A stretch of DNA of 41,203 bases from a virus. Where the stretch lies: positions 1-41,203 of IMG/VR virus record IMGVR_UViG_3300018083_000061. One strand, 5' to 3'. Under the pieces are notes generated by a model. The model worked only from the letters and a program-made list of their open reading frames with translations, ran no database searches and was not told where the DNA came from. Both the position numbers and the translations under genes were made by a program. Shown piece by piece: positions 4,961 to 30,967 of the stretch (the stretch's first letter is position 1; every line of letters starts with the position of its first letter).

Positions 4961-5503
4961 ATGTTGACACATAATTGGCTGTGGGTTGATCTCGAGACAA
5001 CGGGCCTGGACGAGCATGCGGGCCAGATCCTGGAGGTCGCGTGCGCCGTCGTCGACGACGGACCTGATGGCACGTTTGGAGTCCTCGACAGTGTCGAGAC
5101 TGTCGTTCTCACCGCGGAGAAGCCCGCCATGGACGACTATGTGCGCGAAATGCATACGCGCAACGGCCTGCTTGCCTTGATTGCGCGTGGCGAGGGCGTG
5201 CCCCTTGGGGAGGCCGACGAGATGTGCCGCGCGTTCGTGGACACCTACTGCGGCGGCCCGAGGGAGAAGGTCGTCCTAGCTGGTGGATCCGTTCACTTCG
5301 ATCTGCGCTGGATCAATCGCCACATGCCGCGATTTGCGGAGCGCTGCCACTACCGCGTATTCGACGTGTCCACGCTCAAGGCAGCGGCGCGTGTCTGGGG
5401 TCCGGGTTTCGAAAATATCAAATCCGACAAGCATCGGGCCATGTATGACGTCCAGGCGTCAGTGAAAGAGGCCAAGGCGTACCTCGATTTGGTTCGGGCG
5501 TGA
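4961..5503 (+). CDS. orn: Oligoribonuclease (DEDDh 3'-5' exoribonuclease)
   Basis: The 180-residue protein matches oligoribonuclease closely in size and layout. It begins 'WLWVDLETTGLD' (D10, E12), has 'HFDLRW' (D114), the family signature 'YRVFDVSTLK' (131-140), and ends with H158 and D163 in 'HRAMYDV', completing the DEDDh catalytic set. The enzyme degrades 2- to 5-nucleotide RNAs to mononucleotides; in a phage it could recycle short RNA from transcript decay or primers. ATG 4961 is chosen over the upstream in-frame start at 4883 because it has AAAGGA close by and matches the family N-terminus. Its stop overlaps the GTG of the DNA polymerase, so both are probably made together. Confidence 0.85.
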   Translation: MLTHNWLWVDLETTGLDEHAGQILEVACAVVDDGPDGTFGVLDSVETVVLTAEKPAMDDYVREMHTRNGLLALIARGEGVPLGEADEMCRAFVDTYCGGPREKVVLAGGSVHFDLRWINRHMPRFAERCHYRVFDVSTLKAAARVWGPGFENIKSDKHRAMYDVQASVKEAKAYLDLVRA

Positions 5504-7683
5504 TCTCTGAGCCCGTCCTCCTCCTGGACTTCGAGAGCCGCTCCCGCGCGGACCTCAAAGTTATTGGTGGACGCAACTATTGGACACATGCGTCAACAGA
5601 AGCGATCGTCTGCGTGGCTACGCTGGCGCCGATCAACGGGGTTCACTCGGGCGAATACTGGACGTGGTACTACGGCGATCCCATGCCGGACTTCGCGGAA
5701 GCGCCGGTCATAGCCGCGCACAACGCTCGGAACTTCGATCGCTTCGCATTCCCGCGTCTCGGCTGGCCGGAGCCACGCCTGTGGCTGGACACTTCGGAGA
5801 TGGCGCGCGCGAGCGGCTTACCAGGCAAGCTCGCGGACCTTGGCGAACGCCTCGCCGGCCTCGAGAAAGATTCCGAGGGCAATCGATTCACGCTCGCCCT
5901 GTCTCAGCCGAGCCGCGCCAAGGCGACGCTAGGACAACTCCCCGAGCTTACGCGACCGGTGCTCGAACGTGTCGCGAAATACTGCAAGACCGATGTCGAG
6001 ATAATAGTGCTAGCCTGGCCCCACTTAGAAGACTTCGCGGAGCTCGAACCGCGCGTGGCCAAAGTCTGGCACGAGGCGAACGATCGGGGCCTCCTGTTCG
6101 ACTCGGACCTGGCGCGGGCGTTGCTCGACGCGGACGCGCACGCCGCGGCGGAAATCACCGGCATCCCGATCGAGGCCATCCGAGATGAGCTGTTCGTCCC
6201 CGCGGCGCTCGCGCGCGGGGTCAAGCTACCCCGTAAGTTTTCGCCCGCGGACCTACGGAAGCGAATCGCGAAGGGCGTGGATCTCGAGACGGAGATCTTA
6301 CTCGCGGCGCGCTTGCAGGTGAGTGCGTTGCGGCACGCGGCTACGTTCTGTCAGCGCATTCGTGAGGCCGGCGGATACACGGACAGCGCTCAATACGACG
6401 ACGTGGAGCCCCTCACGCGGTCGGACAACTCCGCCGTAGCGGACCTCGCCCGGCATCGGCTGGCGCTCGCGTCCATAGCCAGCGGGAAGCTCAGGGCGGG
6501 CTTAGCGCGCGTTTCCCCCGATGGGCGTATGCGAGACAACGTCCGGTACTACGGGGCCCATACGGGCCGTGGTGCGGGCGGGGGGATGCAGTGGCAGAAC
6601 TTCCCTCACCCGGAGGGCCTGGGCGTCGACGGATGGTCGGTCGCCCCTGCCAAGATCGATGGGGTGGAGCATCCCGGGTGGGACGATGATCGGGTCTGCG
6701 CTGAGACTGGAGCGCACCGACTGTGGAATCAGGCCGAGATCAGCATGCTCTTGCGCGCGTGCGCAATGGCTCCGCCGGGGCGCGTGCTCGTTGCCGCCGA
6801 CTTCTCCGGGATCGAGGCGCGTGGCAACGCATGGGCCGCAGGGGATGCGGCGGCGCTCGCGCTATTCCGCGCCGGAGGTGATGCGTACAAGCCTCTTGCA
6901 TGTCGCCTGTTCTCGATCGATCCAGCGACATTCGGCAAGAAAACCCATTTCACCGAACGCGACACCTCGAAAAAGGCGGAGCTCGGGTGTGGGTACCAGA
7001 TGGGCGCCCCAAAGTTCAAGATCACAGCCGAAAAGGGCGGCATGGTCTGGCGCGCCGCGGCCGAATGCCAGACGGGCCCCGGCAGTCTGTGCAGCGATCC
7101 GATCTGTGGCGTGGTCGAACAGGACCGCAACGGGAACGCGTACACGCACGGATCGAAAATCATTGTCGATGCCTGGCGTGAAATGCACCCAGATATCGTC
7201 AACTTTTGGTACGCCCTCGAACGCGCCGCGGTTGAAGCCGTCGACGGTCGGACGTGCGTCGCGGTCGATTGCGCGGTGTCGCTCGCGTTCGACATGGTCG
7301 GCAAGGATCTCGCGTTGGTACTCCCCAGTGGGCGCCCGGTCGTGTACCGCAACGCGGCGATTAGCGAAGGTAAGTTCGGACCACAGGTCCGCTTCTACGG
7401 CCCGAAGGGGTACGCGCATCTATACGGTGGCCGGCTCTGCGAAAACGCCGTCCAGTCGTTCTCTCGGGATAAGCTTGTCGAAGCGATGGTCAATGCGGAC
7501 GACGCCGGTCTGGACATCATCCTGACCGTCCATGACGAAATCGTGGCCGAAGTCGAGGCCGCGCGCGCGGAGTGGGGCCTCCGCACGCTGTCCGAGTGCA
7601 TGACGCGCCCTTCCGAGGCGAAGTGGGACGAGGGGTTCCCGATCGCGGTTGAAGGATTCATAGCACGGCGGTATCGAAAATGA
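5500..7683 (+). CDS. Family A DNA polymerase with 3'-5' exonuclease domain
   Basis: The 727-residue protein starts with a proofreading exonuclease domain: 'LLLDFES' (D10, E12), 'AHNARNFD' (D80) and 'YCKTDVE' (Y161, D165). The polymerase domain carries motif A 'VAADFSGIEARG' (D434), motif B starting at R487 with K491 and Y499 ('GCGYQMG'), and motif C 'TVHDE' (H678, D679, E680). It has no 5'-3' exonuclease domain. This is the phage replicative polymerase, working with the nearby primase and helicase. An insertion after motif B (about 520-545) carries three cysteines (C523, C531, C536). The GTG start overlaps the oligoribonuclease stop and the stop overlaps the methylase ATG. Confidence 0.93.
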   Translation: MISEPVLLLDFESRSRADLKVIGGRNYWTHASTEAIVCVATLAPINGVHSGEYWTWYYGDPMPDFAEAPVIAAHNARNFDRFAFPRLGWPEPRLWLDTSEMARASGLPGKLADLGERLAGLEKDSEGNRFTLALSQPSRAKATLGQLPELTRPVLERVAKYCKTDVEIIVLAWPHLEDFAELEPRVAKVWHEANDRGLLFDSDLARALLDADAHAAAEITGIPIEAIRDELFVPAALARGVKLPRKFSPADLRKRIAKGVDLETEILLAARLQVSALRHAATFCQRIREAGGYTDSAQYDDVEPLTRSDNSAVADLARHRLALASIASGKLRAGLARVSPDGRMRDNVRYYGAHTGRGAGGGMQWQNFPHPEGLGVDGWSVAPAKIDGVEHPGWDDDRVCAETGAHRLWNQAEISMLLRACAMAPPGRVLVAADFSGIEARGNAWAAGDAAALALFRAGGDAYKPLACRLFSIDPATFGKKTHFTERDTSKKAELGCGYQMGAPKFKITAEKGGMVWRAAAECQTGPGSLCSDPICGVVEQDRNGNAYTHGSKIIVDAWREMHPDIVNFWYALERAAVEAVDGRTCVAVDCAVSLAFDMVGKDLALVLPSGRPVVYRNAAISEGKFGPQVRFYGPKGYAHLYGGRLCENAVQSFSRDKLVEAMVNADDAGLDIILTVHDEIVAEVEAARAEWGLRTLSECMTRPSEAKWDEGFPIAVEGFIARRYRK

Positions 7684-8390
7684 GGTACCTTGGCGGAAAG
7701 TCTCGCATCGCACGCCGTATGGCCAAGGTCATCAACGCCGAACGCCAGGGCGCGCTCCTGTGGGATCCGTTCTGTGGCGGTCTGTCGATGGCCGCTGCGC
7801 TTGGCCCGCCGATCATTTGTTCCGACGTCCATGCGGGCCTGATCAACCTGTACCGCGCTGTCCAGGCTGATCCCGGATTTCTGGACTGGATCCCAGAGCT
7901 CACGTCTGACGATTACGCGTTCGCCAAGACGTTGCCCGCGGAGGACCCCGTCGCGGCGTTCGTGGGCTTTGGGCTCTCGTTCCGCGGCCAGTGGTTCCGC
8001 GGCCTGGCGGAGGCCCGCGCTGTGCGTCCTGGGGGCCCGGTGTATTCGATGCTCGACTCGTCTCGCAATCGCGTGAAAGCAGACGTGGCGGCGGCGGGCG
8101 CGTCGTTCACCTGTCAGGACTTCATGCACGCCCTCATCTACGAAGGTGTCCACATGTATCTAGACCCACCATACCGCGGCACCCAAGGATACGCGGGCGT
8201 CCCGCCGTTCGACCACGACGCCTTCGAACTCCGCGTGTGTGAATGGGCTGACGCTGGCGCCGTCGTATGGGTGAGCGAGTATGATTTTCCCGTGGGGGAG
8301 GTCGTGTGGGAGGCCCCGCGCCGAATGTCCGGCGTATCGCGCAAGGGCGAGCAACCGATGGAGCGCCTCTACCGTATTGGACCCAAATGA
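7680..8390 (+). CDS. DNA adenine methylase, Dam/D12 class
   Basis: The 236-residue protein opens with the Dam-type motif 'MRYLGGKSRI', then motif I 'DPFCGG' (29-34) and catalytic motif IV 'DPPY' (162-165), the order of alpha-class N6-adenine methyltransferases. It transfers methyl from S-adenosylmethionine to adenine in DNA, probably at GATC or a related site, and may protect phage DNA from host restriction. GATC is frequent by eye in this window, which fits but does not prove the specificity. The ATG overlaps the polymerase stop (ATGA), and the next gene overlaps its own stop the same way. No restriction partner is seen, so it is an orphan methylase. Confidence 0.9.
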   Translation: MRYLGGKSRIARRMAKVINAERQGALLWDPFCGGLSMAAALGPPIICSDVHAGLINLYRAVQADPGFLDWIPELTSDDYAFAKTLPAEDPVAAFVGFGLSFRGQWFRGLAEARAVRPGGPVYSMLDSSRNRVKADVAAAGASFTCQDFMHALIYEGVHMYLDPPYRGTQGYAGVPPFDHDAFELRVCEWADAGAVVWVSEYDFPVGEVVWEAPRRMSGVSRKGEQPMERLYRIGPK

Positions 8391-12253: not shown

Positions 12254-12432
12254 TGAATTGGCGTCTCAAAGTCGGGATAAGCATCCTACTTAGTCCGATA
12301 GTTTTCTTGATCGGTTTTTTATGCTACGTTAGCATTCGTGACCGGGATCCAACGCCACTAGTGTGGTTAGCACTGTCCATATTTATTTTCACTGGCGTGA
12401 GGTTCTGTGCCTCCGGGGTAAACCGCGAATGA
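12250..12432 (+). CDS. Two-helix small membrane protein
   Basis: The 60-residue protein has two hydrophobic helices, 'ILLSPIVFLIGFLCYVSI' (about 12-29) and 'LVWLALSIFIFTGVRF' (about 37-52), joined by a charged 'RDRDP' turn, so both ends should lie on the same side of the membrane. It overlaps its neighbours by ATGA on both sides. Its DNA is visibly richer in A and T than the rest of the operon, partly because hydrophobic residues use T-rich codons but perhaps also from recent acquisition. Function is unknown; a superinfection-exclusion or holin-like role would be guesswork. Confidence 0.6.
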   Translation: MMNWRLKVGISILLSPIVFLIGFLCYVSIRDRDPTPLVWLALSIFIFTGVRFCASGVNRE

Positions 12433-13478
12433 CCACGATCGAAATCATCCACGGCGATTGTCTCGATTTCGACCCCGTCGAACACGGCCGCAAGTTCCAG
12501 GCATTGATCGTCGATCCGCCGTACTCCGAGCACGTGCACGCGAACATTACGAGCGCCGGTACCATGGGCGGGGGCTCGCGGGGCTGGCACCGGCAAGAGC
12601 TTTCTTTCGGTGCGTGCACGCCGGAGCTTCGCGCCCACATTGCCGCGTGGGCCGCACGCGTGCAGGGATGGGCCCTGGTCTACTCGGACCACGAATCTTC
12701 GCACCTCTGGCGCGCGGCGTGCGCCGATGCAAAGTCGGAATATGTGCGGACGTTGCTCGCGGAATTGGAGGACGACACGCCCGAGGGATACGCGGGCTCG
12801 CTCCCGTGGGAGCGCTGGTCACAACCCCAGAAGTCCGGCGACCGACCCACGCAGGGCTTTGAGGTGGTCTCGCTTTTCTGGGGGCGCGCGCATTCCCGAA
12901 AGACCTGGAACGGCCCCGGGAGTCTGACGTGTCTCCGGCACAAATGCCTGCGGGGCGCGGACAAGCATCGGTCGGAGAAGCCGCTCGACCAGGCTCTAGA
13001 CCTGGTCTCGTGGTTCACCAATGGCCCCGGCGTACCGTGGGGTGAGCATCCCAACATCACCGTTGATGGCGATGAGGCGCGCGTGCCGGTGGTCGAGCGG
13101 ACTCCCGCCGCGATTGTCGATGGTCGCGCCATGACGGCCGTCCCATCCCAGAATCCATTCCTGCCGGTCTTGGACCTGTGTGTTGGGTCTGGCACCACGG
13201 CCGTCGCGTGTTCCCTCTTGGGCGTCGATTGCGTGGGTTTCGAGCTTGACCCCGGCAATGAGGGCCTGGCAGAGTTCGCAGATCAGCGCGCCCAGGCGGC
13301 TCTCGCCGGGAAGCTGAACAAAAGCGACCGTGAACGCGCGGAGCGCTGGGTGTTGGCCGCAATTGACGAAGCCGAGAGGGCGCCCTTTCCGAAGGCGGCC
13401 GATGGCTCAGACGTAAAAACGTGGGAACGCGCTCAGCGCCGCCTTGCACGCGCGCGCGTCGTCGGTGACAAGCTGTGA
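12429..13478 (+). CDS. Beta-class DNA methyltransferase (N4-cytosine or N6-adenine)
   Basis: The 349-residue protein starts 'IEIIHGDCLDF' and has catalytic motif IV 'VDPPYS' (28-33) near the N-terminus and the SAM-binding motif I 'LDLCVGSGTTAVAC' near residues 245-258, followed by 'GFELDPG'. Motif IV before motif I is the beta-class order. The middle holds 'SEKPLDQALDLVSWF', the usual K-P segment of these enzymes. The target sequence is unknown. With the Dam-type enzyme in the same operon the phage carries two methylases, which fits defence against host restriction. Its GTG/ATG neighbours overlap; it is the last sure gene of the rightward operon. Confidence 0.88.
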   Translation: MTTIEIIHGDCLDFDPVEHGRKFQALIVDPPYSEHVHANITSAGTMGGGSRGWHRQELSFGACTPELRAHIAAWAARVQGWALVYSDHESSHLWRAACADAKSEYVRTLLAELEDDTPEGYAGSLPWERWSQPQKSGDRPTQGFEVVSLFWGRAHSRKTWNGPGSLTCLRHKCLRGADKHRSEKPLDQALDLVSWFTNGPGVPWGEHPNITVDGDEARVPVVERTPAAIVDGRAMTAVPSQNPFLPVLDLCVGSGTTAVACSLLGVDCVGFELDPGNEGLAEFADQRAQAALAGKLNKSDRERAERWVLAAIDEAERAPFPKAADGSDVKTWERAQRRLARARVVGDKL

Positions 13479-22269: not shown

Positions 22270-23988
22270 CTACTTCGCCTTTTGCGTGAGTGCTTCGAGG
22301 GCCGCCCGGTTGTCCGTGCGGAGCGCCTCGGCCACGGCCTTTTTTATCGCGTCCTTATCGGCCGCGGTCGTGTTATTCCCGAACGTCAGATTGACGGTCT
22401 TGTTATCGTTCAGGATGGCCGTGGTCCCCTGAACCGCTGCGGTCGCGAGCGTGCCGGTGACCTGAGCCGGCGCAAGGCCAACTGCCTCAACTTTCGCGGT
22501 CTCCATTTCCCTGTTGATTCGTTGGGTGCGCGTCTCCTGTGGTGCCCCGATTTCGCCGGGCAAGCTTGAGGCGTACGCCGCCCGCGCACGCTGCCCTTCG
22601 GCCGTAAACTCGAACTCACCCGTTCCGCTTTGCCGGGCGTACGCGCGCATGTCCCGAACGTCCTCACGTTTTTTCGTATCGACGATCTTCTGTTCCTGAT
22701 CCGTCGTGTCGATCTGAAGCGCTTTCTTGACGATGTCTGGAAGGACGAGCACGTCCAGAAGCCCGTTCCATTTCTGCATGGCGCCCAGAACGAATTGTTC
22801 AATCGCCAGAGTCATGCCGTTCATGATGCTACTCCAGCCCTCGAAAATCGCCGCGAACGAGTCCGTGAAGTGAGCGGTCATGAGCGCAATACCAGCGAGT
22901 GCGCGCGTGCCAAACGAGGCATTAGAGTTACCCAGCGCATCGAACGCGGCCTGCCCGCTACCCACGAACATTTGAAACGATCCGATCGCGTCGTTCGCCC
23001 AGTCCCGGACTTTGCCCGACGAGCCCGCGCCGAACACCCCGTCCAGGGCATCCGCAAGCAAGGACTGCTTCCCGTTCAGGAATCCGATCACCTCGTCCAC
23101 TGCGAAAAAGATCGCCGCGAACTTGAGACCTTTGCCAATGAACGGCCGGAGCGCGCCGAACACGGGCCCCGCCAGCGTCGCCGCGAGCGCAACACCCGCA
23201 TTGTCCGCGAGGGTCGTGCCCTTCGTGAAGTTCGAGACGAAGCCGACGGCCTTCGAAATCCCCTCGGCCACCTTGGACAATTGTGGGAACAGCGCACCCG
23301 CAATCGTCCCTTTCAGCGCGAACATGGAGCGATCAAGCCGCGCCAGGTTATCGCGATACTCGCCCGCGCGTGCGATCGTCTGGGCGTCGACGATGCCGCC
23401 GGACTCCTCCAGCTCCTTACGCAGAGCTGCGATCCCATCCTGGCCTCGCTCTAGTGTCGGGATCAGGCGCACGCCTGCGCGCCCGAAAAGGCTCGTCGCG
23501 ACCGCGGCCTTTTCGTTCGCTGACGCGAGCTTACCAAAGCCATCGAAGATCTCCGGCAACACGTCAGCGAGTTCACGCGGCTTGCTCGTGTCAATCTTGA
23601 GCTTGTTCAGGGCTTCAACCTGGGCTCCACTGGCCTCCGTCGTTTTGCCAAGGCTCTTTTGCAGGAGGCTTAGTGACGCGTTGAATTCTTCCGTGCGTAC
23701 GCCAGAGACTTCAGCGGCGTAGCCATAGACCTGCAACGCGTCCGTCGCGATATTCGTCTGGGCGTGGAGGTCATCCAAGACGTCCAACTGCTCTGCGAAA
23801 TGATTGAGCCCGCCGAGAAGCGCGTTACCCGCGAACGCGCCGATGAGCCCCGCGCCCAGGCCGGCGAGCGACGAGGCCCCGTCCTCTGCGCGTTTCGCGA
23901 ACTTGTCGACGGCTTTGTTGCCCTGATCAAGCTTCCCCTGCCCGTCGAATACGACGGACAGACGTGCGAAGACTTCTTTCAGGGCCAT
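22270..23988 (-). CDS. Tail tape measure protein
   Basis: The 572-residue protein is largely helical, with an N-terminal region 'ARLSVVFDGQGKLDQGNKAV', Gly/Ala hydrophobic segments ('LAGLGAGLIGAFAGNALLGG' at about 41-60; 'GVALAATLAGPVFGALRPF' in the middle) and a charged C-terminal half. It directly follows the frameshifted chaperone gene, as tape measure genes do. At roughly 1.5 angstrom per residue the tail would be near 80-90 nm long, a rule-of-thumb estimate. Confidence 0.85.
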   Translation of the reverse strand: MALKEVFARLSVVFDGQGKLDQGNKAVDKFAKRAEDGASSLAGLGAGLIGAFAGNALLGGLNHFAEQLDVLDDLHAQTNIATDALQVYGYAAEVSGVRTEEFNASLSLLQKSLGKTTEASGAQVEALNKLKIDTSKPRELADVLPEIFDGFGKLASANEKAAVATSLFGRAGVRLIPTLERGQDGIAALRKELEESGGIVDAQTIARAGEYRDNLARLDRSMFALKGTIAGALFPQLSKVAEGISKAVGFVSNFTKGTTLADNAGVALAATLAGPVFGALRPFIGKGLKFAAIFFAVDEVIGFLNGKQSLLADALDGVFGAGSSGKVRDWANDAIGSFQMFVGSGQAAFDALGNSNASFGTRALAGIALMTAHFTDSFAAIFEGWSSIMNGMTLAIEQFVLGAMQKWNGLLDVLVLPDIVKKALQIDTTDQEQKIVDTKKREDVRDMRAYARQSGTGEFEFTAEGQRARAAYASSLPGEIGAPQETRTQRINREMETAKVEAVGLAPAQVTGTLATAAVQGTTAILNDNKTVNLTFGNNTTAADKDAIKKAVAEALRTDNRAALEALTQKAK

Positions 23989-23992
23989 GGGG

Positions 23993-24597
23993 CTACGTTG
24001 ACGCCACCGCGGCGCGGGCCGCAGATACGGAATCGATCAAGTCATTTGCGGCAAGTACGCGCCACAATGGCCAGTCTAGCACCTCATCGAAGGTGACGCG
24101 TAAATCCGGGGAAAGCACTAGGCGCCAGACGTACCACTCGTCTCTGCAAGCTTCGGGGATTGTGACCCGGAGCTGTCCACCTTGAGATTTTCCGCCAGGC
24201 TTCCGAGAAACCTTTCCACCAATTCGCCTAAAAAATCGCCGCACTCGAACTCCACAGCGGCTTCGATCCACTTACCGAAATCGCCCATGCGCCCGGCGAA
24301 ATGTTGATCGACACAGGCAGATAGTGTCACGCTGGTGCCGCTCTCCAGGCTCTGGACCTGAGTGTACGGCGCGAACGTCTGGACGATGTAGTCCAGCGTC
24401 GGCCCGAGGTCGGGGGAGCTCAGGAGGTACACCACAGCGTTTGCGATGCGCGCTCCACCACGCCCCTGACCCATGCCGGCGAACAGCGCCGCGCTGGCGT
24501 TGCCCAGACGTGCACACACCTGCAACGTCTCGCGCGCCTTGGCGTGTGTCAGCACGTACCGATATCCCCCCATTTCGACCACATGGTTCTGAATCAT
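23993..24597 (-). CDS. Tail assembly chaperone, -1 frameshift fusion (gpG-T-like)
   Basis: A -1 shift at TTTTTTA (24229-24235) joins residues 1-123 of the short chaperone to 78 residues of the second frame ('RRIGGKVSRKPGG', then 'DEWYVWRLVLSPDLRV', 'DWPLWRVLAANDLID'), giving 201 residues. The second frame has no plausible start of its own near the expected place but contains a well-formed domain with Trp-rich helices, as usual for the T part. It ends 4 bases before the tape measure ATG at 23988. This matches the conserved G/GT arrangement of long-tailed phages, where the ratio of both forms controls tail assembly. Confidence 0.75.
24118..24597 (-). CDS. Tail assembly chaperone, short form (gpG-like)
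   Basis: The 159-residue protein starts at ATG 24597 with GGAGG five bases upstream and contains 'MGGYRYVLTHAKARETLQVC' (9-28) and 'FGKWIEAAVEFECGDFL' (107-123). It lies between tail tube and tape measure genes, the standard place of tail-assembly chaperones. A slippery heptamer at codons 121-123 allows a fraction of ribosomes to shift -1 and make the longer product; those that do not shift read on to the stop at 24118, ending in 'KLAETSGTSGA'. An upstream in-frame start at 24690 lacks support. Confidence 0.78.
   Translation of the reverse strand: MIQNHVVEMGGYRYVLTHAKARETLQVCARLGNASAALFAGMGQGRGGARIANAVVYLLSSPDLGPTLDYIVQTFAPYTQVQSLESGTSVTLSACVDQHFAGRMGDFGKWIEAAVEFECGDFLGELVERFLGSLAENLKVDSSGSQSPKLAETSGTSGA
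24229..24235 (-). promoter_or_regulatory. Programmed -1 ribosomal frameshift slippery site
   Basis: On the minus strand the zero-frame codons are GAT TTT TTA, so the heptamer T TTT TTA fits X XXY YYZ exactly. After slippage the -1 frame continues AGG CGA. Fifteen bases downstream a hairpin of 7 pairs with a 3-base loop (24197-24213, arms AGGTTTC/GAAGCCT including one G-U pair) could stimulate shifting, though its spacing is longer than the usual 5-9 bases. Confidence 0.75.
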
Positions 24598-24637: not shown

Positions 24638-25066
24638 TTACGTGCCGGCTTCGATGACCTTCGGCGAAACGCAGACGATCTTCCAGTCACGCGGACCGGC
24701 CTGGCCGCCGTAGGCGATCGTCGGGAAGCCGACGATCCATGCCTCGTCGGTGACGAACAGGCTAGCCCCGTTGCCGTCGCGACACATGAATGGGCCCACG
24801 CCCGCGCCTCCGGGGGAGAGCAAGTCTTGCGTGTGGATGCCCGTCAATACGCCGTTCGAACGGGATGACTGCATAAAGTGAATCGTCGCAGTTGCGGTGC
24901 GTCCGAGCACCTTGGACCGGGTGATACCGCCGTCGACACCGCGCACGAGCTTGAACGCTTCCACGTCCCACTCGATGTCAATCATCGAGTCCTCCGCGAA
25001 GCCCTCGAGCAGGATACCGTTGAAGAGCGTCTGAACTTGATCGGGGTCGTAGTGTTTGGTGGTCAT
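24638..25066 (-). CDS. Tail tube protein
   Basis: The 142-residue protein contains 'MIDIEWDVEAFKLVRGVDGG' (28-47) and 'TATIHFMQSSRSNGVL' with 'ASLFVTDEAWIVGFPTI', the pattern of contractile-tail tube proteins of the DUF3277 type. It sits directly after the sheath gene and before the chaperone, the expected order. It forms the rigid inner tube driven through the envelope when the sheath contracts. Confidence 0.85.
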   Translation of the reverse strand: MTTKHYDPDQVQTLFNGILLEGFAEDSMIDIEWDVEAFKLVRGVDGGITRSKVLGRTATATIHFMQSSRSNGVLTGIHTQDLLSPGGAGVGPFMCRDGNGASLFVTDEAWIVGFPTIAYGGQAGPRDWKIVCVSPKVIEAGT

Positions 25067-25075
25067 GGCGAATCC

Positions 25076-26467
25076 TTACAGCTTGACGAAGACCGACACG
25101 TTTGCATGACGGATCGCGCCGGAATAGGTGAAGTCGATCACGATACCCGGGCCACCAAGCACGCGTGCCGCGCGGTCATTGTCCGAGATCTGAGCGAGCG
25201 TTGGAATCGAAATCGTCGGCTCGTTCCCGTCCTTGTCGATGGCCAGGATGCCGCCGGCCGTGATACCGGCCGCGATACGCGCACGGCAAATGCTCTCGTA
25301 TTGTGCGAGACCGCGTTGGCTCATTGGGATCTTTCCGGAGTTCAACGTGACGGCTGCAATATCCTCTTGCAGACGTACCGCGAACCAATCCTCGAACCGG
25401 GTCTGATCCATCGGCTTACCTCCGGCCGCATCGCCACCAAGCGTGTGGTGTCGCCCGGCCGTGGTCTCAATCACGGTGTAGCCCTTATCACGCAGCTTCG
25501 TCTTTTGGTCGGGGCTAAGACCGTTCGCGCGCACGCCCACGAGGGGCTTGGCGTTGAAGTCGCCACCTGCATTCGGCGGCGCACCGGGGTCGAATGGCGC
25601 GCGCTCTGCCGCGGAAGCAACGCCAGCGAATCCGTCCGTGCCAGTCTTGTCGAAAATGCACATGGTCCGCTTGTAACTGACCGCGTCCAATTGTGATTGA
25701 ATATCGCCCGTTTCGGCGTCATCCATAGCATTCGTGTCGGACGTGTTCGTGAAGTAGAGGACGCGCCGAGTCTCAGCCCAATCCGCGATTTCCTTGGTGA
25801 TCGCCTTCGAATTGTAGGCGCTCGCGAGATGGTAGAAATCCGCGTCCGCGTCGTAGATGGTCGACAGATCCGCGTCGACGCCGGGGTCGGTCGTGCGATC
25901 TTCAACTTCGAGACGTTCGTGGCGCCAATCGCGAAGATAGAACCACTCGCCTTCGGCCATCGAAAGATCGAGGTGCGTCGCGGTTCCGCCGGAGGCGGTG
26001 CAAACGAGGTCCTCCAGAGGCTCGCCCGTATCCTGCAAATCTTCGATCGCGGCTTGGAGAGCGTCACAGACCTCGTCGACGCTTGAACCCGTATCCGACG
26101 TGATCGAGATGTCGACGGGGTCTTCGCCCACTACTTCGATCGTGATCGAATATACAGTCGAATTGAATGAATTTGGAGTGACGCGGATCGTCGGGGTCGC
26201 TGCATTCTCCAGGCGCAAGATCTTGATCGGGTTCGGCTGTGGCGATTGCTGGAGGGCGCGTTCGAGCGCGAGCACGGCCGGATGGTTCGACGGCAACGAA
26301 ACGGGCGAACCGGTGAGGTCGGACTTGGATGTAACGACGCGGGAGAGATCACCGTCCAGGGCCGCCGACGGAATGTATGCCGCGATACCAACGGTACCGA
26401 AACCGACCTGCGTAAGGGCAGGGCCCTCACTCGCAACGATGACCGTGGAAAAATCGTTCAGGGACAT
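25076..26467 (-). CDS. Contractile tail sheath protein (DUF3383-like)
   Basis: The 463-residue protein begins 'MSLNDFSTVIVASEGPAL' and has an acidic central domain, then the C-terminal part of DUF3383 sheath proteins: 'DWFAVRLQEDIAAVTLNSGK' (about 355-374), 'GLAQYESICRARIAAGITAG' and a final strand ending 'HANVSVFVKL'. It is the strongest evidence that the phage has a contractile tail. It lies 8 bases before the tube gene. Confidence 0.88.
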   Translation of the reverse strand: MSLNDFSTVIVASEGPALTQVGFGTVGIAAYIPSAALDGDLSRVVTSKSDLTGSPVSLPSNHPAVLALERALQQSPQPNPIKILRLENAATPTIRVTPNSFNSTVYSITIEVVGEDPVDISITSDTGSSVDEVCDALQAAIEDLQDTGEPLEDLVCTASGGTATHLDLSMAEGEWFYLRDWRHERLEVEDRTTDPGVDADLSTIYDADADFYHLASAYNSKAITKEIADWAETRRVLYFTNTSDTNAMDDAETGDIQSQLDAVSYKRTMCIFDKTGTDGFAGVASAAERAPFDPGAPPNAGGDFNAKPLVGVRANGLSPDQKTKLRDKGYTVIETTAGRHHTLGGDAAGGKPMDQTRFEDWFAVRLQEDIAAVTLNSGKIPMSQRGLAQYESICRARIAAGITAGGILAIDKDGNEPTISIPTLAQISDNDRAARVLGGPGIVIDFTYSGAIRHANVSVFVKL

Positions 26468-29246: not shown

Positions 29247-29278
29247 GGGAGTCTTTCTAAATCCTGATGTTGCCGGGG

Positions 29279-29827
29279 TTAGCCCGTGGGGCCAGTCGGA
29301 CCCGTGGGGCCAGTCGGACCCGTGGGGCCGGTCGCGCCGGTCGCGCCTTGCACCGCGTAGCCAACGCGCGCGACGACACAGAGCGTCGCCGAAAGCGCAC
29401 GTTTCACGACACAGCCGGCGAGGAGCGCCGCGTTCGCCGTGTCAGCGTCATTGCGGACCTTGCCACGGTTCGTCACCGCGTGGATAACATAAACGTTATC
29501 GCCCTTCGCCATTTGCTCGGCGGACTGCACGACGATGCCGGGACCCTGCTCGACAAGCGGAACCGCATCACCGATTTCGTACTCTACGCCGTCCTCCTGG
29601 TTACCTTTCGTGGTGTCGAGACAGACGAAGCCGACGCCCGTCACGGTGACTTCGTTCGCCGTGGTCGGGAGCTTTCGCTGGCCGTCGGCCGAACCGACGC
29701 AAGCGAACAGGCCTCCGTTCAGGGCGACTTCGGCCACGCCGCGGCCATCGATCGTGAACTGCCCCATAGGGCCAATGAGCTGGCCGGCGCGGGCTTCGGG
29801 GAACTGTGCGAGTTGAGTGCTTTGCAT
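29279..29827 (-). CDS. Head decoration/cement protein with collagen-like tail
   Basis: The 182-residue protein lies between protease/scaffold and major capsid, the place of P22 gp24-like cement proteins. It has 'ARAGQLIGPMGQFTIDGRG' (13-31) and beta-rich repeats such as 'YEIGDAVPLVEQGPGIVVQS'. The last 22 residues (161-182) are a pure collagen-like G-X-T tract running to the stop. Trimeric decoration proteins at capsid vertices or threefold axes could carry such a tail as a surface fibre. The tract resembles the one on the tail fibre (residues 50-88), suggesting exchange between the two genes. Confidence 0.75.
   Translation of the reverse strand: MQSTQLAQFPEARAGQLIGPMGQFTIDGRGVAEVALNGGLFACVGSADGQRKLPTTANEVTVTGVGFVCLDTTKGNQEDGVEYEIGDAVPLVEQGPGIVVQSAEQMAKGDNVYVIHAVTNRGKVRNDADTANAALLAGCVVKRALSATLCVVARVGYAVQGATGATGPTGPTGPTGPTGPTG
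29282..29347 (-). repeat. Collagen-like tract at end of decoration protein
   Basis: Seven G-A/P-T triplets plus a final Gly directly precede the stop codon. The DNA consists of near-perfect 18-base units ('GGCCCCACGGGTCCGACT' type), so unit number could vary by slippage. Confidence 0.85.
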
Positions 29828-29857
29828 GGTCGTGACTTTCGGGGGACCTGTTGGACG

Positions 29858-30355
29858 TTACAGAGAAACGCCTTTTTTCTTGGCTGCTTCGAGGCGCGCT
29901 TCGTACAGTGCGCGCGGGCCGTTCTTGTCGTCGTTCGAATCCGCGCGCGGTGCGGGCGGGGTATTGAGCGCCTCGATCACGTCGTGCGCCTTGCTGGACG
30001 TCGCGAACGTCGCATCGAAACGCGCCTCGACATAGACCTCGTCCCGGCCCTTGTCATCGAAGCTCGAATCGGCGCGCTTGATCACAGCGCAGCGGAGCTC
30101 GCGATCGGAGAGCGGCGACTCGACGCCCGCCGCATCCTTACGCGTAACGGCGAAGTCTGCGCCCATGACGGTCCGTACCTTCGAGACGAGCGCCGCATGC
30201 TTGGCATTCGCGGCTTCCGCGTCGTGTCGCGCCACCGTCTCGGTCATCGTTCTGACCGACGCTTCGGCCGCGTCCCCACGCGCCTCAAGTTTCGCGATTG
30301 CGGCCTGTGCCTCGACCTCGTTCTCGTACGTCTTGCCGTTGATCGTGATTTTCAT
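29858..30355 (-). CDS. Possible internally initiated scaffold protein
   Basis: An in-frame ATG at 30355 (residue 191 of the protease/scaffold gene) opens exactly at the boundary between the protease and scaffold halves. It is preceded by AGGA about ten bases upstream. Initiation here would yield a free 165-residue scaffold beginning 'MKITINGKTYENEVEAQ', analogous to lambda C/Nu3 where the scaffold is made from an internal start. This is inferred from domain layout and a moderate ribosome-binding site. Confidence 0.5.
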   Translation of the reverse strand: MKITINGKTYENEVEAQAAIAKLEARGDAAEASVRTMTETVARHDAEAANAKHAALVSKVRTVMGADFAVTRKDAAGVESPLSDRELRCAVIKRADSSFDDKGRDEVYVEARFDATFATSSKAHDVIEALNTPPAPRADSNDDKNGPRALYEARLEAAKKKGVSL

Positions 30356-30925
30356 GGGTTCGGATTCCTGAGCGTCGATGTGTTGGATTTCTTCGCCGGC
30401 TGCATCAAGTCGGCACTCGCGGCCCATGCGCCCCTCACCGGGGCGAAGCATGGCCACATGGTTGTAACGGATCGTGGTCTGAGCCTGGTCATACCGCTGG
30501 CCTTCGTATACACCGGGGGTCGCGTCGATCTTGCACGTGTACGCGCCGGAAAGCTCGGTATGCGTGCGCCGCTCAGCGCCCTCGATAGCATCCTGGCGAC
30601 CGAGCACCATGCCCGCGCGCACGCGCTGGCCATCATCGTGTTTCGCAACAGACCCCGCCCGGACGTGGCCGACGGTTACCGCGGCGAACTTCGCCGGGGT
30701 GACGTTGCCGGCGGGGTGTCCGAGCGTAACCGGCACATCTTCCAGGCTCGCGAGCGAATCCGCGTGGAAAACCTCGTCAGGGTGCCGGAGTTCCTTTACC
30801 TCGGACCCGTCGGCGCGCTTATAGGTAAATACGCCGGTCCGCGTGGGGTACGCAGTAACGCGCATGAGGCCGCCGGGCGTACGCTCCGCGGCATCGATGC
30901 GCGATTCACAATACCGAAGGCTCAC
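29858..30925 (-). CDS. DUF2213-type capsid maturation protease fused to scaffold
   Basis: The 355-residue protein has the DUF2213 protease-like N-terminal half: 'RYCESRIDAAERTPGGLM' (4-21), 'YPTRTGVFTYKR', 'EVFHADSLASLEDVPVTLGHP' start at about 51, H71, and 'ELSGAYTCKID' (S about 126). The second half from residue 191 is a charged helical scaffold with 'KTYENEVEAQAAIAKLEARG', ending basic ('EARLEAAKKKGVSL'). Scaffold is cleaved out during capsid maturation. The GTG at 30925 is supported by the family N-terminus. It lies before decoration and capsid genes, matching the usual order. Confidence 0.78.
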   Translation of the reverse strand: MSLRYCESRIDAAERTPGGLMRVTAYPTRTGVFTYKRADGSEVKELRHPDEVFHADSLASLEDVPVTLGHPAGNVTPAKFAAVTVGHVRAGSVAKHDDGQRVRAGMVLGRQDAIEGAERRTHTELSGAYTCKIDATPGVYEGQRYDQAQTTIRYNHVAMLRPGEGRMGRECRLDAAGEEIQHIDAQESEPMKITINGKTYENEVEAQAAIAKLEARGDAAEASVRTMTETVARHDAEAANAKHAALVSKVRTVMGADFAVTRKDAAGVESPLSDRELRCAVIKRADSSFDDKGRDEVYVEARFDATFATSSKAHDVIEALNTPPAPRADSNDDKNGPRALYEARLEAAKKKGVSL

Positions 30926-30967
30926 CCTATATGAGTGCCCCAGAATGCAGACACGCGCAAGTCGGCG

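Follow-up and report, generated by a model that had tools for sequence, protein, structure and literature searches.

Tail gene order and the tail assembly chaperone

In an uncultured virus (IMG/VR record IMGVR_UViG_3300018083_000061; the whole stretch of 41,203 nucleotides that was analysed is referred to as the window), a short gene ahead of the tail tape measure protein gene is overlapped and extended by a second open frame in the -1 register, which raises the question of whether, and by what route, this second frame is translated. A -1 programmed ribosomal frameshift in a tail assembly chaperone gene of the Phage_TAC_15 family is proposed as the answer, with a probability of about 0.93. The proposal draws on features that can be read from the sequence, namely the slip site and its exact conservation, the open -1 frame and the selection acting on it, the protein family and the gene order.

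The structural genes concerned lie on the minus strand in the order sheath, probable tube, chaperone and tape measure. The contractile tail sheath gene (25076..26467; phrog_205, E 4e-64; PF11863 DUF3383, 49.4 bits) is followed by a gene for a KPP10 Orf10-like structural protein, the probable tail tube (24638..25066; phrog_280, E 2.2e-32; PF11681, 22.8 bits, slightly below the cut-off of 25). The zero-frame gene of the overlapping pair (24118..24597; ATG at 24597, TAG at 24120-24118) lies between this gene and that of the tape measure protein (22270..23988; 572 aa; phrog_8125, E 6.7e-33). It encodes a protein of 159 aa that passes the curated cut-off of Pfam PF21822, Phage_TAC_15 (30.2 bits against 22), and matches the tail assembly chaperones of phrog_1613 (E 2.4e-5); it is considered the TAC-N, or gpG-like, product. 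The relatives tested score 47.6-84 bits for Phage_TAC_15.

An AlphaFold2 model of the chaperone built from 11 relatives (pLDDT 85) resembles predicted phage tail chaperones, with 11 predicted viral proteins matched at E <= 0.001. The best of these is itself a predicted tail assembly chaperone (E 4e-6, TM 0.64), and the chaperone of Citrobacter phage Moogle was matched weakly (E 0.018). A search of solved structures with the model gave no match. The proposed shift site falls within the last long helix of the model (104-142).

The -1 frame and the predicted fusion

The -1 extension (TAC-C, or T-like part; minus strand, 23993..24229) is entered at the A of TTA (AGG CGA ATT ...) and its peptide begins RRIGGKVSRK... 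It consists of 78 codons and the stop codon TAG (23995-23993), after which four bases precede the ATG of the tape measure gene at 23988. Joined to the chaperone, it would give a fusion protein (TAC-NC, or gpGT-like; minus strand, 23993..24597) of 201 aa plus stop. The position of the slippery heptamer (24229-24235), the 78 codons, the four-base gap and the 201 residues had all been given in an earlier note on this DNA and proved correct when re-read in the sequence. Modelling of the -1 part predicts a disordered basic linker followed by a compact, separate helical domain that starts near residue 24 and has pLDDT >90 across its last 40 residues; solved structures searched with this model yielded no match.

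Relatives were collected from scans of IMG/VR, which gave twelve loci besides the window, several loci coming from the same contigs. L007, a partial match confined to the sheath, was left out, as was L003, which was rejected as a chance match in an unrelated ORF. Phage records searched with the chaperone of the window and with the -1 ORF gave no match, and the phage collection contained no relative of the window at the nucleotide level or for the chaperone protein; phage-record searches with two relatives, and a scan of genome contigs, were likewise without a match.

Comparison of the -1 frame in relatives, which had been suggested as a check, showed it to be open in all of those examined. In every metagenomic relative it continues past the zero-frame stop, and its product contains a P...W..W...W.L motif, the P and the three W residues of which are invariant or nearly so among 11 sequences. 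Substitutions between the window and L005 indicate that the -1 frame is under purifying selection: past the zero-frame stop its pN/pS is 0.356, compared with 1.3 and 2.2 for the other two frames, and in the overlap it is 0.448, compared with 0.69 for the tail of the zero frame. The -1 frame is thus taken to be translated and to be under selection, and this includes the part that precedes the zero-frame stop.

The slip site

The heptamer T TTT TTA (minus strand, 24229..24235) is read in the zero frame as GAT TTT TTA, a phase that fits tandem -1 slippage, and lies 36 codons ahead of the zero-frame stop, where the -1 frame leads into the conserved ORF. By count alone TTTTTTA is unremarkable, with 0.35 copies expected on the minus strand of the window and one seen; it is the in-phase occurrence within a gene that is remarkable. 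The heptamer at 24235-24229 is the sole in-phase case, with none elsewhere among the 9,338 codons examined. Its codons are also uncommon in the window genes examined, where TTA accounts for 14 of 784 leucine codons (1.8%) and TTT for 63 of 310 phenylalanine codons (20%), and just one of 21 Phe-Leu pairs is spelled TTT TTA. A count of leucine codons in the long ORFs of the L001 and L002 loci gave no further TTA.

The exact T TTT TTA also occurs in six uncultured relatives (L001, L002, L005, L006, L011 and L014), where it occupies the same pair of codons and the same alignment columns; the proteins of these relatives share 23-66% identity with that of the window. The site is therefore not specific to this phage, as the earlier note had supposed. 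At the slip position L016 and L037 carry T TTT TTC, L012 carries T TTC TTC and L015 carries T GTT TTT. A canonical heptamer is absent in three of the 13 metagenomic loci, the window being counted among the 13 (L012, L013 and L015). In L013 (2680-2970) the -1 frame is open and conserved, with GAG GTG CTC AAA at the usual codons and no clear slip site there; the sequence CTA AAA AGC occurs a few codons past these.

A second in-phase slippery sequence, A_AAA_AAG, occurs in the window towards the end of the tape measure gene. It is probably there by chance, being not conserved in L005 and having a -1 frame that extends for only about 28 codons; it was rejected as a further slip site.

Candidate stimulators

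Downstream of the heptamer, an inverted repeat (AGGTTTC-TCG-GAAGCCT; minus strand, 24197..24213) of seven pairs, one of them G-T, begins 15 nt past it. The repeat had been described earlier as a hairpin at this distance; it exists as such, but a role as stimulator was rejected, its stability being that of shuffled sequences and no counterpart being found in the relatives. Over 39 nt, folding was no better than that of shuffles (z 0.16). Longer stretches downstream of the heptamer folded worse than shuffles; over 79 nt, z was +1.07, with 180 of 200 shuffles equally or more stable. No structure common to the relatives was found after the heptamer, z < -2 being reached only in L014 and L016. A crude stem scan for a conserved stem 3-12 nt past the heptamer placed only L016 clearly beyond shuffles (2/200), with L001 and L011 borderline. 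Downstream RNA structure, which is common in frameshifts of the G/GT type and not required, was hence not detected in these analyses, in which pseudoknots were tested only crudely. A Shine-Dalgarno-like stimulator was also rejected: the window and L006 have a GGAG approximately 14 nt upstream, which is missing in the contexts read for L001 and L005.

Routes to expression of the -1 frame

Alternatively, the -1 ORF could be translated independently, as a small gene that has a start codon of its own, perhaps through coupling to termination of the chaperone gene, at the end of which a GTG overlaps the zero-frame stop in the window (TAGTG, 24120-24116). A GTG with GGAG upstream is also present five codons ahead of the shift, and in records of cultured Pseudomonas phages the -1 ORF is listed as a hypothetical protein in its own right. 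However, conservation and purifying selection begin ahead of any such start, and a separate gene would leave unexplained why a heptamer composed of rare codons and open to synonymous variation has been retained by seven phages. The -1 frame of L001 is closed by a TGA directly at the heptamer, and L001 and L014 possess no ATG, GTG or TTG ahead of the conserved W motif, so that in these phages the domain has no simple route to expression other than a frameshift at the heptamer or immediately past it. Independent initiation or termination-reinitiation was rejected as the main explanation, and is regarded as very improbable.

Two further readings concern the run of T residues itself. Slippage of RNA polymerase, known on homopolymer runs, could add a base at T6, whereupon a share of the mRNAs would encode the same fusion protein directly. 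Yet six T residues are a short run for such slippage; the cultured relatives mostly have only five (G GTT TTT followed by A or C) and L012 has no run at all, and each of the nine loci with T TTT TTA or T TTT TTC has the run in phase for tandem slippage by the ribosome. Little probability is thus given to a transcriptional origin of the fusion. The error-prone nature of homopolymer runs also allows for a sequencing or assembly indel in a gene that is really one continuous frame. Against this, the two frames are related in the same way, and at the same position, in independent contigs of different metagenomic origin, the zero-frame tails of which differ in length (17-36 codons), and isolates share the arrangement; these independent loci refute an indel in practice.

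Proposed mechanism

Programmed -1 frameshifting by the ribosome is consequently the preferred reading, and the comparative evidence gives strong support to the earlier proposal of a G/GT-type fusion of 201 residues made by a shift at T TTT TTA. Most ribosomes would terminate at TAG 24120-24118 and produce the chaperone of 159 aa, while a minority would slip back one base during decoding of GAT TTT TTA, the P-site tRNA-Phe on TTT re-pairing with TTT and the A-site tRNA-Leu shifting from TTA to TTT. The slipped ribosomes would read 78 more codons, adding the flexible basic linker and small helical domain to the chaperone. By analogy with gpG and gpGT of phage lambda, the short and long forms may coat the tape measure protein, with the extra domain recruiting the tail tube subunit; we infer the slippage itself, its low rate and these gpG/gpGT-like roles of the two products.

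At the HIV site the junction residue is mostly Leu, with 20-30% Phe (reviewed in PMC5009743), so two junction peptides are predicted, ...GDFLRRIGG... and ...GDFFRRIGG.... According to the same review, U_UUU_UUA shifts less readily in E. coli than A_AAA_AAG does. This lower shiftiness was counted against the frameshift, together with the lack of a stable or conserved stimulator and the three of 13 loci that do not carry a canonical heptamer. A tentative and rather unlikely extension of the model is that slippage in the uncultured clade needs no 3' RNA stimulator, that the rare, slowly decoded TTA in the A site sets the ratio of short to long form, and that the clade has replaced G GTT TTT by T TTT TTA at the same site.

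Comparison with cultured phages and other frameshift systems

All cultured Pakpunavirus, Otagovirus, Nankokuvirus, Flaumdravirus and unclassified phages examined carry TCG GTT TTT in the alignment columns occupied by TTT TTA in the window, a finding which also contradicts the supposed uniqueness of the site; in Vibrio phage L027 these columns read TCT TTT. The annotated records that were looked at list two separate ORFs and no joined gene, the -1 part being called a separate hypothetical protein in PAK_P4 (L017, 8218-8849), L018, L019, L021-L026 and L028. Despite this annotation, these records of cultured Pseudomonas phages have TCG GTT TTT at the shift position and a -1 frame that is open throughout. 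A frameshift has already been argued for this group, in a description of Pakpunavirus Adele (PMC12846349, 2025) that assigns a conserved -1 shift to the chaperones of Vandenendeviridae and Andersonviridae and places it at GTTTTT, which is invariant there.

The window shares with these two families a contractile tail, a Phage_TAC_15 chaperone (84 bits for that of PAK_P4) encoded between the tail tube and tape measure genes, a -1 extension of similar size and the placement of the slip site, which falls in the same pair of alignment columns. It differs in the spelling of the site, T TTT TTA rather than G GTT TTT, and in its 41 kb record, the genomes of the cultured group being approximately 84-102 kb in the records examined. 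For the Felix O1-like Citrobacter phages Michonne, Mijalis and Moogle, a translational shift to the -1 frame has likewise been reported upstream of the tape measure gene (PMC4591319, PMC5543628); these are distant in sequence and their slip site is GTTTTT (PMC12846349).

The G/GT shift of lambda and its wide conservation are textbook knowledge (PMC5009743). The arrangement in the window resembles it in its location ahead of the tape measure gene and, with the ratio here being inferred, in an abundant short form and a rare -1 fusion; lambda differs in having a non-contractile tail and a chaperone of another family. The lambda G/GT slip site is G GGA AAG. With HIV-1 gag-pol the heptamer (U UUU UUA) is identical, a match limited to the slip site, as the gene is unrelated and the shift there involves eukaryotic ribosomes and an RNA stimulator.

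This kind of frameshift is therefore already known: it has been described for the majority of long-tailed phages, with lambda G/GT, the Felix O1-like myophages and Vandenendeviridae as examples. New are this phage as a further example and, within an uncultured clade, the T TTT TTA spelling. The comparison extends a conserved decoding strategy, described only recently, to an uncultured group of contractile-tailed phages, and shows a slip position that stays fixed through changes of spelling (T TTT TTA, T TTT TTC and G GTT TTT). The general picture of tail chaperone frameshifting is unchanged by this finding. In annotation, the -1 domain is best included in a fusion product, and neither omitted nor called a separate gene.

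Other features of the window

An open frame of 555 aa on the plus strand (29267-30934), opposite the minus-strand structural genes and with no PHROG match, may be a spurious antisense frame. The plus-strand replication half of the window encodes a DNA polymerase (5500-7683), beside which two DNA methyltransferase-like genes are located (7680-8390 and 12363-13478).
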